Assembly: GCA_003054695.1 (NCBI GenBank)
Contig: QAZA01000045.1
Coordinates: 310,001 to 374,000 of the forward strand
Reading direction: 5' to 3'
Source of the DNA: Verrucomicrobia bacterium LW23
Lineage (GTDB): Bacteria > Verrucomicrobiota > Verrucomicrobiia > Methylacidiphilales > UBA1321
DNA: 64,000 nt
Position 1 is the stretch's first letter; each line of letters starts with the position of its first letter. Below, piece by piece: positions 35,209-50,166 of this stretch. Position numbers and translations under genes: made by a program. The notes beneath the pieces are model-generated. The model was not told the origin of the DNA, searched no databases, and was given only the letters and a program-made list of their open reading frames with translations.

Positions 35209-38200
35209 TTACGCGGCGGGCCAGGGGCGCGGTGTTGCCGGGGGCGCCGAGGGAGGCGCTGTGGATGATGTGGATGCCGCCGTGGGTGAGCGCTCCGCAA
35301 CAATACGCCACAATGCGCATGCTGCAAACATCCCCAGCACCATGCCGGCCGCCATGGCAAAAAAGGCGAAGAAAAACTCCACCTGCGCGTTGGGCAGCCG
35401 CAGCAGGGCAATGAGATAGCCGCTGCCCACCATCCCGACCAGCATGCCCGCCGTTACGGTAATGGAGTGCGCCACGCGCCGCAGAAGGGAGCCGCTGAGC
35501 GCGTGCCGGCCGTCGCTGACCAGCGCCATGGCGGGCAGGGAGCCGGCGATCATCAGCAGATGCATGAGATGCGGATGCCAGAGGCCTTTGCCCAGCGGGC
35601 TGCCAGCGCATCCGCACAGGCACACGCCTTCGCGGATAATCGGCCCCAGCCCGGCGTCGCCCCACCAGCCAATAAGCATCGCCAGGTTGCCGGCGCTGAG
35701 CATCGCCACCGCCATTTGCCAGGAGAGCTGGTAGCGCAGCCACGGCCAGTAGTGCAGCACCAGCACCCCGCACGTGAGGCTGGTGAGGCCGGCGTTGATG
35801 AATGCGGCCATGTCCGTCTGCCCCAGATGCGCGACAATCGGCCCCTGGATGGCAAAGCATACCGCAAATATCCACGGCGCCAGGCCCGGCCGGCACGCCG
35901 CATCCGCCCGATGCCACGCCGCGCGCAGGACATCGGTAAAGCGCGCCGTGCGTGCAAACACGGGGTAAAGAAAGGGCCCGGGAAAGCCGATGGGCAGCGG
36001 TGCGTGCTCCCGAGCCAGGCGCGGGGCGGCCACGGGAACGGCGGTTGTGTGTGAGGGCGAGCGGGATGCGGATGTTTCGGAAGACAATGAGGAAGGGGAA
36101 CCGGGGGCGGCGTGGATAGCGCCGGCGGCCACAGCAAAGCGCGCAAACCATGCGTTAAGATCCGCCTCGCTCAGCACGCGCAGTTTCTCCGCAAAGTAGA
36201 GAGCGCGCACGGTAACGGTAAGGCTGGATGCCAGCATAACCAGCGCAGCGGCAACGGGATGCAGCCAGCCAGTCGCCGCCAGACCCATGGCCAGCACGTT
36301 GTAGGCAATTGCAAAAATCATGTTGCGGCGCAGCCCATCCCGCACCTGCCGCGCAATCGCAATACCGGTGGGGATGGCGCTGAGGTCGCCCCGGAAAAGC
36401 TGGGCGGATGCCGACTCGCGCGCCAGCTCCGCCCCGTTGGAGAGCGCCACACTGATGTGCGCCCGCGCCATCGCCGCCGCATCGTTAATGCCGTCGCCGA
36501 CAAACAGGACGCGGCGGGGGGCGGCGGGAGAGTCTGTTGCGCAAAGCGCCTCGCCGGATTGGATGGCTCGCACCATCTCCTCCTTTTGCTCAGGCGTAAG
36601 GCCGCTGAAGAATGCGACGTTGCTCCCCGACGCCAGCCCGCGCAACGGGGCGAGGCTCGGCTCGGTATCGCCGGTCATCACCACGGTGGGGATTCCCAGA
36701 TCGCGAAGCCGCGCCAGGGCCAGCGCGGCACCCGGGCGCAGCGTCTCGCGCAGGATTCCCAGCGCGACGAGCCGGCCGTTAAGCGTAACGTAAAGCTCGC
36801 GCGAATCCGAAGCCGCCACACTGTCGCCGGCCGGCGCCCGGGTTTTGCCGCGAAGCGCCTGCAACATCGGCGCGGCACCCGCGTCGGATGCCAGCAGCTT
36901 GGCGTTGCCGATGGCCAGCACCGTCGGCGCGGCATCGCCCTGCCCGCCGGGCGCTGTCCCTGCCGCGCCTGCCGCAGCCGCGCGCACTTTGGCGCTAACT
37001 CCCGCGCCGGCAATCACTTCCGTTTCGCCGACTAGGAGGGACGGGGCCTCCGCCGCCCCTGCCGCTCCAGCACCCGCGTTCCCCTCCGCTGCCACCGCCC
37101 CGGCCGTCCATGCATGGAAGGCGCGCGCCACGGGGTGGGTGCTGCGGGCTTCCACGGCGGAGATCCACGCGTAAAGTTCGCGCCGATCCACGCCGTCAGC
37201 GCACACAAAATCGACAACGCGCACTTCGTCCTCGCTCAGCGTGCCGGTTTTGTCGAAGACGACGCAATCCACTGCAGCCAGCCGCTCCACCACGTCGCCG
37301 CCGCGCGCCACGATGCCGCGCGAGCCCAGCGCGTTCAGCGCGCTCCATATGGCGATAGGCGTGGCCAGCCCCAGCGCGCAGGGGCACGCCACCAGCACCA
37401 CGGCCAGCGCGTTAAACAGCCCGGCCGCCCAGCCCGCCAGGGGGATCCACACGGCCGCGGTAACCACAGCCACGGCCAGCACCATGGGCAAAAACCACCC
37501 GGTCAGGCGGTCGGCCTCCAGCGTCCAGGGGGAGGGGCGCTCGCGGGCATCGCGCAGCGTTTGAAGCAGCGCGTCGATACGCCGCTGCGTGCCGTCCGTG
37601 GCGGCCTCGACGACAAGCGCGTCGTCCACCGTTACGGACCCGCCCAACACCAGATCGCCCGGGCGCTTGACGACAGGAAAAAGCTCGCCCGTTACCGCGG
37701 ACTGCCGCACATAGGCCGTGCCGCGCACCACGCGGCCGTCCAGCGCAATCCCTTCGCCCACAGGCACCAGGAACAGATCGCCGGCGCGCATCTCCCGCAC
37801 TGGCACGGATTCCGCGCGCGCCTCGGCTCCGCCATCATCAGCTCCCGGTCCGGAGAGCCTGCGGCAAAAGCGAAAGGCCTCTTCCATAGCCGCCGCGGCG
37901 CGGAAGGCGGCGCGCTTCTGGCCCTCCACCAATAGCTGGCCCAGCGAGTAAACCGCCAGTAAAATCGCCACCACCTCGTAATACACCGAGCCGACGCCCG
38001 TGACCGAGCTGAGCACCGACGCGCCAAACGCGCCCGCCACGCCGGCCAGAAAAAGCTGCTCCACACTCACACGCCGCGCGCGCACACCGCGCCACGCCTC
38101 GCGCAGCATCGGCCCGCTTACCAGGGCAAACGCGATGACCGCGGCCACCGCCAGCGCGCTGTGGATAATCAGGCGCGTCTGCGCGTCCACATCATCGCCC

Positions 38201-38376
38201 GCCATGTTAATGCCCAGGCCAAACATCATGGACTGGAAGGCGATCATCGCCGCCAGGCCCGCCCGAAACCACGCCCGCACCACCTCCGGCGACGGCTTTC
38301 CCCCGCGCCCGGGCGCTCCGCCTTCCCCCACGGCGCACGCGTCCCCGGTTTGCGATGGAGAGCAGCAGACGGACAT
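35209..38376 (-). CDS. P1B-type heavy-metal ATPase with an extra C-terminal membrane domain
   Basis: 1055 residues from the ATG at 38376. The N-terminal 25 residues have a Cys cluster (MSVCCSPSQTGDAC) instead of a metal-binding HMA domain. The ATPase core is complete: SAVTGELFP actuator, CPC (331-333) in the metal-site helix, phosphorylated Asp375 in FDKTGTLSEDE, VVMTGDTEP and FVGDGINDAAAMA. It should export Cu+ or a similar soft metal. After a standard C-terminal helix pair, about 330 residues add roughly six more membrane spans, including CLCGCAGSPLGKGLWHPH, a Cys/His-rich loop. I do not know this domain; it could be a metal donor/acceptor or redox partner. Confidence 0.9.
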   Translation of the reverse strand: MSVCCSPSQTGDACAVGEGGAPGRGGKPSPEVVRAWFRAGLAAMIAFQSMMFGLGINMAGDDVDAQTRLIIHSALAVAAVIAFALVSGPMLREAWRGVRARRVSVEQLFLAGVAGAFGASVLSSVTGVGSVYYEVVAILLAVYSLGQLLVEGQKRAAFRAAAAMEEAFRFCRRLSGPGADDGGAEARAESVPVREMRAGDLFLVPVGEGIALDGRVVRGTAYVRQSAVTGELFPVVKRPGDLVLGGSVTVDDALVVEAATDGTQRRIDALLQTLRDARERPSPWTLEADRLTGWFLPMVLAVAVVTAAVWIPLAGWAAGLFNALAVVLVACPCALGLATPIAIWSALNALGSRGIVARGGDVVERLAAVDCVVFDKTGTLSEDEVRVVDFVCADGVDRRELYAWISAVEARSTHPVARAFHAWTAGAVAAEGNAGAGAAGAAEAPSLLVGETEVIAGAGVSAKVRAAAAGAAGTAPGGQGDAAPTVLAIGNAKLLASDAGAAPMLQALRGKTRAPAGDSVAASDSRELYVTLNGRLVALGILRETLRPGAALALARLRDLGIPTVVMTGDTEPSLAPLRGLASGSNVAFFSGLTPEQKEEMVRAIQSGEALCATDSPAAPRRVLFVGDGINDAAAMARAHISVALSNGAELARESASAQLFRGDLSAIPTGIAIARQVRDGLRRNMIFAIAYNVLAMGLAATGWLHPVAAALVMLASSLTVTVRALYFAEKLRVLSEADLNAWFARFAVAAGAIHAAPGSPSSLSSETSASRSPSHTTAVPVAAPRLAREHAPLPIGFPGPFLYPVFARTARFTDVLRAAWHRADAACRPGLAPWIFAVCFAIQGPIVAHLGQTDMAAFINAGLTSLTCGVLVLHYWPWLRYQLSWQMAVAMLSAGNLAMLIGWWGDAGLGPIIREGVCLCGCAGSPLGKGLWHPHLMHLLMIAGSLPAMALVSDGRHALSGSLLRRVAHSITVTAGMLVGMVGSGYLIALLRLPNAQVEFFFAFFAMAAGMVLGMFAACALWRIVAERSPTAASTSSTAPPSAPPATPRPWPAA

Positions 38377-38508
38377 AATGCCCCATGCTACTCGCATCCG
38401 CCCCAGGCGCCAAGGCCAAACCACCCGCGCGCCGCGGTTATGAGGCCGGCCGCGCCCCTGAATTAGCCCGGTTAACGCGAGCCGGCCGAGCCTCGAGTCT
38501 CACCCCGA

Positions 38509-47216: not shown

Positions 47217-49865
47217 ATGCCTACTTCCCCTGCCTCTGAATCCGTTACCGCCACGGCGCCGAGCGTGCCGCCCCGCGTGCGGGTGGCTTTTCCTCGCAAG
47301 GGGCGCCTTCAGGTGTGGAGCAGCGAGGTGTTTCGCGATCCGGATTCGATCCATGCGCGGCGGTTTGTCGTCAGCGCGTTTCGGATTCAGGAGGTGTTGC
47401 GCATCGATATCGACCCGAAGCAGGGGCTGGGCACCATCCGGTTTTTGCCGGAGATTCCGGCGGAGTCGGTGCTGCAGCGGCTGGGCAAGTTGCTGCAAAA
47501 TACGTCGGGGTCCGGGGCGCCGGCGGATTCGTCGCACCTGCATTTGTGCATGGCGGCGAACGGGGTGCCGCAGCCGGTAAGCGTGTTTCGGCACGGGCGC
47601 ACGCTCAGCACGTGGGAGATTTTGCATGAGTCGCCGGGGCGGCTGCGGTTGCGGCACGCGGCGGTGCGGCGGTACCGGCATTTGCCGCCGGTGTTGCGGG
47701 AGGAGCTGGACTCGACGCTGGGGATTACCAGCTTCAAAATCAACACGCTGACTTCGACGGTGCTGGTGAGCTATAAGGAGCGCCGTATTTCGCGCAAGCA
47801 GGTGCTGCTGGTGCTGGAGCGCGCGCTGCATACCAGCGACAAGGACCGGCCCGCGCCGCGCCACGATGTCGAGTTTGCGCTGGCGCATGTGTTTGTGGGC
47901 GTGGCTACGGTGTCCACGTTTGTTTACCCGCCGCTTTCGCCGGCGGCGGCGGCCATTATGCTGGGCACCAACGTGCACACGGCCACCAACGCGTGGAAGC
48001 AACTGCTTCGCGGGCAGGCAGATACGTCGACCGTGTACACGGTGATGATGGGCTACTCGCTCCTCGCCAACTCCTACTTTGCGGCGGCGCTGATGGGCTG
48101 GTGGATCAAGTACTGGCCGCGCCTTACGGCCAGCACGGTGCGCGCGGCGCAGGAGCAGCTGTGGGCGCGCTATCGCAAGCGCCCGCGCTTTGTGTGGAAG
48201 GAAGAGGGCAATGTGCAGATGGAGGTGGCGGTGGAAGATCTGCGCCCCGGCGATCGCATTGTGGTGACGATGGGCGGCGTGGTACCCGTTGATGGCGAGG
48301 TGGTTGCGGGGCACGCCAGTGTGGAGGAAAGCCTGGTTACGGGCGACACGGGCATCCGCGAGCTGCGCACCACGGACGAAGCGTTTGCCGGCAGCCGCGT
48401 GCTGTGGGGCGAGGTGACGATTCGCATGGCGCGCGCGCATGGGGCCACGTCCACGGCGCACATCAATCGCATGCTGCATCATGCTGCGTCGCAAATGCTT
48501 CTGAGCGAGGAGACGGGGCGCGCGATGGCGGCCAACGCGGCGCTGCCCAACCTGCTCACTTCCGCGGCCGGCTTTGCTGTGGGCGGCGTGGTGATGGCCC
48601 ACGCGGTGGTGCGGCCGGATTACGTGAGCGGGGTGCATATGTCCTCGCGCCTCAGTCTTATTCAGTCGCTGCGGCAGAGTGTGCGGCACGGCGTGGTGGT
48701 GCAGGACGGCGGTGCGCTGGAGCGGCTGCTTAAGGCCGACATGGTGGTGCTGGAGAAGGATTCGCCCCTGCTGGACGCGTGCGCGCTGGAGGTGAGCCAT
48801 GTGGTGCTGCATGTGGCGCCGCGTGAGGATATTGTGCTGCGCTATGCCGCCGCAGCGCTGTTTGCGCTGCAGGAGCCGCTGGCGCATGCCATTGAGAATG
48901 CGTGTGTTGCGAAGAATTTGCGGGTGGCCCCGGCGCAGGATTTCCGCATCAGCGCGGGCACCACGTTTACCAGCGGCCAGCGCACCATCCGCGTCGGCAG
49001 CCGTGAGTTCCTCCAGGCCGAAGGCATCGCCGTGCCGGAGCCGGGCGCCGCGGTGCGCCCCGCGCCGGGAAGCGGCCCCAAGCATGTGGACCTGGCCGCC
49101 GAGCACGGGGATGCGGATGCCAACGTGCTGGAGAGGGACGCGGACGGCGGGCACAGTGAGGATGACGTGACGGAACCCGTTACGCCGGAGAGCTTTATGG
49201 TTCCGGACCCCGTCTACGTGGCGGTGGAGAACGTGGTGGCCGGCGTTATTCACTTTAAGTACGGCGCGCAGCCGCTGCTGCAGAGCGTGTTGCCGGAGCT
49301 GAAGAAGCGGGGCATTCGCGACGCGACGATCTTTACGGAGGGCTCGCAGGAAAGCGCGCGCGCCGTGGCTAATGCGTTGGGGGCCAACGCGTTCCTGGGT
49401 GGCGTCAAGGGCGGGGATCTGGCGAATTTGCTGGAGATGCTGCGTGGGCAGGGGCGCCGCGTTGTTTACATTGGCGATGGCGCGCGCAATCCGGAGGCCG
49501 CCGCGCAGGCGTGGGTGTCCATCTCCAGCGCGGGGCCGGATACGCTGGGGCGCGACGCCGCGCACATCATCCTGCTTCAACCCACGGCGGACCGCCTGAC
49601 GGCGCTGTGGGATATCGCCGCCGGGCACCGCGGCCGCCTGCGGCAGGCGTACCCGATGTTCATCATCCCCAACATCTTGTGCATTCCCGGCGCGTTTTTC
49701 TTTGGCTTTAACAGCCTGCTCAGCACGCTCGTCAGCACCATGGGCAACCTGTCGGTGTTTACGACAAGCCTGCTCCCCCTCAAGCAGTCGGAGAAACTCT
49801 GGCGCCGCCACCGCCGCTGGCCGACGAACCTGTCGGACCCGGAGAGGGAAGACGAGATGGGGTAG
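47217..49865 (+). CDS. P-type ATPase homologue with altered catalytic motifs (predicted pseudo-ATPase)
   Basis: 882 residues with the fold of P1B-type transporters. Two HMA-like domains at the N-terminus (about 30-90 and 140-205, SPGRLRLRH and INTLTSTVLVSYKE) resemble HMA_2 domains. Membrane pairs and an actuator with DLRPGDRIVVTMGGVVPVDGEVV follow, with VTGDTGI where TGES stands. The metal-site helix has VSGVHMSSRLS (about 471-481) where CPC is expected. The phosphorylation loop has LEKDSPLL (Glu513) in place of DKTGT, and the hinge has GDGARN instead of GDGIND (about 753). The surrounding GGALERLLKADMVVL fits the family. It cannot form the aspartyl-phosphate by the known mechanism. A regulatory or structural membrane role is likely. 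Confidence 0.88.
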   Translation: MPTSPASESVTATAPSVPPRVRVAFPRKGRLQVWSSEVFRDPDSIHARRFVVSAFRIQEVLRIDIDPKQGLGTIRFLPEIPAESVLQRLGKLLQNTSGSGAPADSSHLHLCMAANGVPQPVSVFRHGRTLSTWEILHESPGRLRLRHAAVRRYRHLPPVLREELDSTLGITSFKINTLTSTVLVSYKERRISRKQVLLVLERALHTSDKDRPAPRHDVEFALAHVFVGVATVSTFVYPPLSPAAAAIMLGTNVHTATNAWKQLLRGQADTSTVYTVMMGYSLLANSYFAAALMGWWIKYWPRLTASTVRAAQEQLWARYRKRPRFVWKEEGNVQMEVAVEDLRPGDRIVVTMGGVVPVDGEVVAGHASVEESLVTGDTGIRELRTTDEAFAGSRVLWGEVTIRMARAHGATSTAHINRMLHHAASQMLLSEETGRAMAANAALPNLLTSAAGFAVGGVVMAHAVVRPDYVSGVHMSSRLSLIQSLRQSVRHGVVVQDGGALERLLKADMVVLEKDSPLLDACALEVSHVVLHVAPREDIVLRYAAAALFALQEPLAHAIENACVAKNLRVAPAQDFRISAGTTFTSGQRTIRVGSREFLQAEGIAVPEPGAAVRPAPGSGPKHVDLAAEHGDADANVLERDADGGHSEDDVTEPVTPESFMVPDPVYVAVENVVAGVIHFKYGAQPLLQSVLPELKKRGIRDATIFTEGSQESARAVANALGANAFLGGVKGGDLANLLEMLRGQGRRVVYIGDGARNPEAAAQAWVSISSAGPDTLGRDAAHIILLQPTADRLTALWDIAAGHRGRLRQAYPMFIIPNILCIPGAFFFGFNSLLSTLVSTMGNLSVFTTSLLPLKQSEKLWRRHRRWPTNLSDPEREDEMG

Positions 49866-49880
49866 CGGAAGGAGCGGGAG

Positions 49881-50156
49881 CGGGGAGTTTTTTGACCACG
49901 AAACACACGAAAGTGGGGAGGGGACGAAAGGGGGAAGCGCGGAAGGCAGACGATAGCCAGCCTCTTCCTCTGTTAACCTGGTGTCTTGGTGGTTTGCGGC
50001 TTTTCAAGGAGCTTAACGAAGGGGGAGCTTAACCACCAAGGCACGAAGACTCCAAGTTTGGGAAGGCAAGGCTAAAGTCCGGCGTGTCATCCGACTTCGG
50101 ACGATCCCCTCCGAAATTTCGTGTGCTTTGTGTGCTTCGTGGTTAAAAACTCCCCG
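49881..50156. repeat. Large inverted-repeat element, family F
   Basis: The outer arms CGGGGAGTTTTTTGACCACGAAACACACGAAA (49881-49912) and TTTCGTGTG...CTTCGTGGTTAAAAACTCCCCG (50117-50156) are imperfect inverted repeats. An inner pair, CTTGGTGGTT (49985-49994) and AACCACCAAG (50031-50040), nests inside. The words resemble family A but the sequence is distinct. It separates convergent genes. Confidence 0.7.
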
Positions 50157-50166
50157 TTCCATTCGC

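Follow-up and report, generated by a model that had tools for sequence, protein, structure and literature searches.

A P1B-type ATPase homologue of Verrucomicrobiota without catalytic motifs, and its probable relation to an intact HMA_2 ATPase

INTRODUCTION

Standard examples of catalytically silent proteins are pseudo-kinases and half-dead ABC transporters; to our knowledge, silent paralogues are hardly known among P-type ATPases. ERMA/TMEM94, a eukaryotic Mg2+ transporter of the ER, has a P-type fold with DKQGI and GSSANL and without TGES (PMC13322241). It thus resembles the family described here in its altered phosphorylation loop and hinge and in the missing TGES, but it keeps and needs Asp427(-Lys) of DKQGI, is not a P1B ATPase and is eukaryotic. 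Plasmodium guanylate cyclase beta (PfGCbeta) contains a P4-ATPase-like domain that is devoid of most signature residues (PMC6592433). This domain, unlike the present family, is fused to a cyclase, of P4 type and eukaryotic. Taken together, ERMA/TMEM94 and PfGCbeta indicate that in eukaryotes the fold can outlive its motifs. We know of no intact paralogue encoded with ERMA/TMEM94.

CtpC, a P1B6-like ATPase, depends on PacL1, a non-pump protein encoded beside it, and P1B6 ATPases carry an HN motif in their last transmembrane helix (PMC9374683). PacL1 differs from the protein studied here in being a small scaffold with no homology to P-type ATPases. The ferrosome genes fezABC form a cluster of partner proteins around the P-type metal ATPase FezB, which is of the P1B6 type, and in this respect resemble the clusters described below. 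None of these systems pairs a P-type ATPase with a pseudo-ATPase. In the open-access literature searched we found no bacterial silent P-type ATPase paralogue, no description of a pseudo-P-ATPase family such as this one, and no paper in which 'P-type ATPase' and 'pseudoenzyme' occur together. Here we describe a family of this kind, starting from a gene in a 64,000-nucleotide stretch of DNA from Verrucomicrobia bacterium LW23, here called the window.

RESULTS AND DISCUSSION

The window gene encodes a P1B-type ATPase homologue without catalytic motifs

The gene at 47217–49865 (forward strand, as are all its features below) forms a single open frame of 882 codons, as an earlier note on this DNA had stated, and its G+C content at the three codon positions (0.68/0.48/0.84) is like that of neighbouring genes (0.63/0.43/0.86 for the RND gene). 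Pfam detected E1-E2_ATPase (6e-19), HMA_2 (2.6e-9) and HAD hydrolase (4e-8) in the product, and its nearest sequence relatives in the PDB are KdpB, CopA and ATP7B. The NCBIfam model for heavy-metal P-type ATPases, TIGR01525, matched the protein from end to end with a score of 175.7, half of the curated cut-off of 346; two further members of the family also scored below the cut-off (146.1 for the copy on contig C50 of the same genome and 102.3 for that of genome G009), and intact partners scored above it (408 and 418). The membrane, A and P domains of the P-type fold are all present (Pfam PF00122 and PF00702, together with the predicted structure), which places the protein in the superfamily and agrees with the alignment to P1B-type ATPases claimed earlier. 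Closest among described proteins are the intact HMA_2/P1B6-like ATPases, relatives of CtpC and FezB, which have the same domain order including HMA_2 and share ∼29% identity with it.

The N terminus consists of a first alpha/beta domain (residues 22–94, 47280–47498), seen in the predicted structure in blocks of pLDDT ∼85–92, and an HMA_2 domain (residues 132–216, 47610–47864; Pfam PF19991, above cut-off) in which the alignment shows the PGRxR motif to be retained (SPGRLRLRH). The actuator (A) domain (residues 323–426, 48183–48494; PF00122) retains PVDG, and the last two transmembrane helices, M5–M6, occupy residues 791–866 (49587–49814) by helix positions and predicted structure.

The register of the motifs was read from an alignment with 12 intact relatives, in which the losses of DKTGT, TGES and GDGIND were found as the earlier note had described them. 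Glu513-Lys514-Asp515-Ser516-Pro517 lie over D-K-T-G-T, in a register that hinges on one alignment gap near Glu513, and EKDSPLL (513–519, 48753–48773) takes the place of DKTGTLT, with no phosphorylatable Asp in register. VTGDTGI (374–380, 48336–48356), beginning at V374, stands over LTGES, and the catalytic Glu of dephosphorylation is gone. FTEG replaces [ST]GD, and GDGARN (753–758, 49473–49490), in the context GDGARNPEA, replaces the GDGIND hinge of GDGINDSIA. The framing motif GGALERLLKADMVVL is kept at residues 498–512, again as claimed. One substitution was out of register: HMS had been taken to replace the CPC metal site, but the CPC of a pump encoded at 35209 in the window aligns with Y469-V-S, and HMS sits further on. 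This tyrosine ends the M4 motif RPDY (466–469, 48612–48623), a signature of the pseudo-family by alignment and residue comparison, whose acidic Asp468 is also found in intact relatives. The nucleotide-binding (N) domain is reduced to a shortened remnant (approximately residues 522–601, 48780–49019) with QEP in place of SHP, so that the HP motif is missing, and is followed by an insert (residues 612–660, 49050–49196) that is absent from intact relatives and predicted to be disordered (pLDDT <50). We conclude that the window protein is a genuine P1B-type ATPase homologue that lacks DKTGT, TGES, [ST]GD and GDGxND.

Predicted structures of the window protein and of an N-domain-less relative from G009 reached mean pLDDT values of 80.5 and 84.3, respectively, and both had P1B ATPases as their best structural match (7r0g; Z 30.5 and 26.9). 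VIA-align superposed 580 residues of the window model on 7r0g with an rmsd of 14.9, which is high because the domains are arranged differently; the P domain alone superposed on that of CopA (2voy_I) at 1.6 Å over 127 residues (Z 18.9). As to whether the P domain still folds, its fold is thus predicted, in models that were built with homologues and hence are no proof of folding.

Ten pseudo-ATPases share the same losses

A survey of the order, class and phylum of the window's genome and of the order of genome G516 yielded 10 such proteins from eight genomes, all Verrucomicrobiota (G000, the window's own, and G005, G009, G028, G516, G643, G654 and G682). Of the 62 genomes of the order, 4 had a pseudo-ATPase, as did 6 of the 384 sampled from the class. 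Record labels behind three of the eight name Verrucomicrobiota twice (Ca. Methylacidiphilales; Verrucomicrobium sp.) and Bacteroidetes once; the genome with the latter label is nonetheless classified in the window's own family. No new genomes came from wider scans of genome contigs, which returned first no loci and then three, all from genomes already known. In a plasmid collection no match covered 80% of the query, and the matches were mostly annotated pumps. The remaining matches of the phylum search with a readable frame (thus other than L039 and L043) all had DKTGT.

Not one of the 10 aligned proteins has DKTGT, the Glu of TGES, [ST]GD or GDGxND, and the entire N domain is gone from seven. 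That the motifs are hidden by a frameshift or by readthrough of a stop was considered and rejected, since the gene is a single open frame and all ten genes show these losses. It is therefore very likely that the window protein is no ordinary pump, in line with the non-transporting protein proposed earlier. Glu513 itself is not conserved and is unique to the window copy; the other nine members have Asp-Asp (xDD[ST]) and hence an Asp at the nucleophile position, with which some phosphate chemistry is possible. The window copy has the full PGRxR motif, which the other nine have lost. Asp468 in M4 is present in all 10.

The members fall into three types. Type A is the window copy, for which no orthologue was found in the genomes surveyed; type B comprises the C50 protein and the long G516 protein, both with a degenerate N domain; the seven type C proteins (700–714 aa) have an uninterrupted P domain and no N domain. 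Although the window protein is about equally near to intact proteins (29% identity) and pseudo-ATPases (up to 28%), it carries residues that set the latter apart: H147, R190, Y274, M293, W300-P301-R302, P467 and Y469 occur in all or nearly all pseudo-ATPases and are absent from all or most intact proteins.

An intact HMA_2 ATPase is the constant neighbour

An intact HMA_2-type P-ATPase is encoded in all eight genomes that have a pseudo-ATPase, each with at least one pseudo/intact pair within ∼7 kb. Neither among the 62 genomes of the order nor among the 384 of the class sample did any genome exceed the threshold for one of the two alone. Unlike the pseudo-ATPases, which have none of the catalytic motifs, the intact partner has DKTGT, TGES, GDGIND and an N domain, and it shows D/E-x-GTGIR at the CPC position. 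P1B6 ATPases have HN in the last transmembrane helix, whereas the closely related intact proteins here have NN or NQ and so do not match that type at this motif.

Four genomes (G009, G643, G654 and G682) share an arrangement on a single strand, namely exoD, a gene for a ∼150-aa protein, the intact ATPase gene, a corA homologue and the pseudo-ATPase gene; G028 has the same run except that exoD lies downstream, and the G005 cluster is interrupted by a contig end. The order intact ATPase–CorA homologue–pseudo-ATPase recurs in six operons. The clusters of C50 and G516 contain exoD and small proteins and are without CorA. On a Methylobacterium plasmid the core of exoD, small protein and intact ATPase occurs without a pseudo-ATPase, and in G421 and G678 intact relatives were found and no pseudo-ATPase was detected, the G678 contig stopping just past the gene. 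The intact ATPase can therefore occur without the pseudo-ATPase; the converse is absent from this sample.

All six CorA homologues of these operons (L023:9696–10541, L022:8780–9625, L024:1666–2511, L076:8771–9625, L078:7681–8526 and L079:8039–8884; PF01544, ∼1e-22) stop at the same point, with ...SVAALLVAFI* or a close variant of it as their last residues, within the first transmembrane helix, so that the GMN motif and the second helix are absent from the protein encoded between the two ATPases. Further cluster genes encode PHA_gran_rgn-like proteins and small transmembrane proteins that match no Pfam family; among the small proteins scanned, neither DUF1490 (PacL) nor DUF6110 was matched. Compared with fezABC, the clusters have ExoD, truncated CorA and the pseudo-ATPase, and the FezC cytochrome (DUF4405-like) had no match among the Pfam-scanned neighbours.

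Three observations on the clusters may be recorded separately. The ∼150-aa protein beside exoD and the intact ATPase (L023:6591–7019, L022:5594–6055, L075:10447–10887, L058:2188–2625 and others) belongs to no Pfam family and is conserved between Verrucomicrobiota and the Methylobacterium plasmid. A beta-carbonic anhydrase is encoded near four type C clusters and an Ion_trans channel near two of these (L022:12539–14113, L023:3170–4819, L076:5815–6513, L078:10835–11551). The intact HMA_2 ATPase of G421 is flanked by genes for a protein consisting of an HMA_2 domain alone (L077:5822–6349) and for a small transmembrane protein (L077:5439–5765), a layout that resembles other P1B6 clusters.

Phylogeny, selection and co-inheritance

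In the full tree, pseudo and intact proteins are separated by a branch with 100/100 support, and the window copy branches deepest among the pseudo-ATPases. Reduced trees without type C (100/100) or type B (100/99) rows recovered this split. Long branches are present, and for the type C tree the program flagged that such branches meet; the order of types A, B and C is therefore not safe. For the pseudo/intact split itself, a long-branch artefact was rejected, as the split holds in the reduced trees and the shared residues agree.

Values of dN/dS for three pseudo-ATPase pairs, which are relatives of the window copy rather than type A itself, were 0.087 (G643/G654), 0.125 (G009/G005) and 0.28 (C50/G516-long), and those for the intact genes of the same pairs were 0.036, 0.029 and 0.148; all are rough because dS exceeds 1. 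Being below 1 and above those of the intact genes, they indicate that the pseudo-ATPase genes are constrained, albeit more loosely than the pumps. Together with the ten members without catalytic motifs, seven of them without an N domain, and with the predicted fold of the P domain, these values, well below 1, support the earlier suggestion of selection rather than decay.

For the linked pairs, the pairwise distances among the pseudo proteins correlated with those among the intact ones (r 0.979; 6 of 5040 permutations as high), also after removal of the near-duplicate G654 (r 0.957; 3 of 720), although some correlation is expected from the shared ancestry of the genomes. Both genes of the C50 pair cluster with those of G516, from another order, and not with those of the family-mate G009. 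By these tree positions the linked pair seems to have been co-inherited, and kept together, against the genome relationships.

Possible roles of the pseudo-ATPase

We favour, with slightly better than even confidence, the reading that the window protein is a catalytically silent HMA_2 (P1B6-like) paralogue that persists because it serves an intact HMA_2 ATPase as a partner or regulator without hydrolysing ATP itself. The family would have descended from an active pump, one duplicate of which lost catalysis. It retains the N-terminal HMA-type domains, the scaffold of the actuator and the membrane domain; phosphorylation and dephosphorylation have been given up, and most members have also shed the domain that binds ATP. 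Such a pseudo-ATPase most likely resides in the membrane as partner, regulator or scaffold of the co-encoded intact enzyme, where its membrane signature (WPR after M2, RPDY in M4) might contact the partner or hold an ion. Beyond the homology, motif loss, well-supported branch, purifying selection on the relatives, predicted fold, and co-occurrence and linkage with an intact ATPase, we infer the physical interaction, the regulation and the metal of the pair.

The earlier note had likewise proposed a regulator of a true pump, and a regulator or partner is indeed the best reading; the pump that it named, encoded at 35209, does not fit. That pump is distant and CPC-type (25% identity, E 1e-5), its type is never linked to a pseudo-ATPase, and the linked type is HMA_2 in all eight genomes. 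The window's own genome encodes exactly four HMA_2 proteins, namely two intact ATPases and two pseudo-ATPases: on contig C50 one of each adjoin, contig C11 carries a lone intact copy, and the window copy belongs to no cluster of this kind, a search of the window for other cluster genes having found none. The C11 and C50 enzymes are its closest intact relatives there (31%, E 3e-89 and 30%, E 2e-84). Its partner is probably the lone C11 ATPase, which is a guess.

Metal sensing by the window protein, also raised earlier, is possible. That the protein acts on its own as a receptor in the membrane or a sensor of metals, its HMA_2 and membrane domains binding metal and signalling without a pump partner, we consider unlikely: the window copy stands alone and retains HMA_2 with PGRxR, the acidic M4 residue is found in 10 of 10 members, and type C members are co-encoded with soluble domains of CorA, which sense Mg2+, but full PGRxR is gone from the other nine, a kinase, regulator or output domain is neither fused to the members nor regularly found next to them, and the constant neighbour is the intact ATPase. 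Distinctly unlikely, too, is a protein that still transports, whether by altered or no phosphorylation chemistry like ERMA/TMEM94 or as a passive ion pathway. ERMA, whose motifs are altered to a similar degree, retains the fold and reportedly moves Mg2+ (PMC13322241), and pseudo-ATPases have Asp468 in M4 throughout and a nucleophile-position Asp in 9 of 10; yet ERMA retains and needs its Asp (Asp-Lys) where the window protein has Glu, and 7 of 10 members are without any nucleotide-binding domain.

It is very unlikely that the window copy is a decaying pump gene, divergent, unlinked, bearing a disordered insert and without a type A orthologue as it is, since its 882 codons form an unbroken frame whose codon-position bias is normal, the signature residues of the family are present, the relatives are constrained and the P domain is well modelled. 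We regard it as highly improbable that the protein, like PacL1 for CtpC or FezA with FezB, is a scaffold that stabilises a membrane platform or an organelle and leaves the ATPase cycle untouched. The ExoD, ∼150-aa, small transmembrane and PHA_gran_rgn-like proteins of the clusters and the scaffolding of CtpC by PacL1 (PMC9374683) speak for it; PacL (DUF1490) and DUF6110 remained unmatched among the small proteins scanned, and a simple scaffold would hardly call for the large P-ATPase fold.

Returning to the partner of an intact ATPase, we tentatively advance, as a wider idea that may well prove wrong, a heteromeric system made of a catalytic HMA_2 ATPase, a pseudo-catalytic P-type subunit and, in the six operons, a CorA-derived cytosolic domain without the GMN pore, in other words a metal-handling machine built partly of dead transporter homologues. 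The findings suggest that a dead copy of a pump may have become a working partner of a live one. A pseudo-P-ATPase beside an intact one offers a direct test of P-type pumps as hetero-oligomers, and the N-domain-less members are a natural set for showing what a P-type membrane domain does without ATP.

Other features of the window

The CPC-type P1B ATPase at 35209–38424 (reverse strand) has an unusual C-terminal extension with several further transmembrane helices. Directly 3' of the pseudo-ATPase gene, at 49877–50160, lies an imperfect inverted repeat of ∼280 bp containing CACGAAACACACGAA. With one mismatch allowed, the genome has 42 occurrences of the pattern GACCACGAANCACACGAA (control 0), often as opposed pairs a few hundred bases apart, as a dispersed element.
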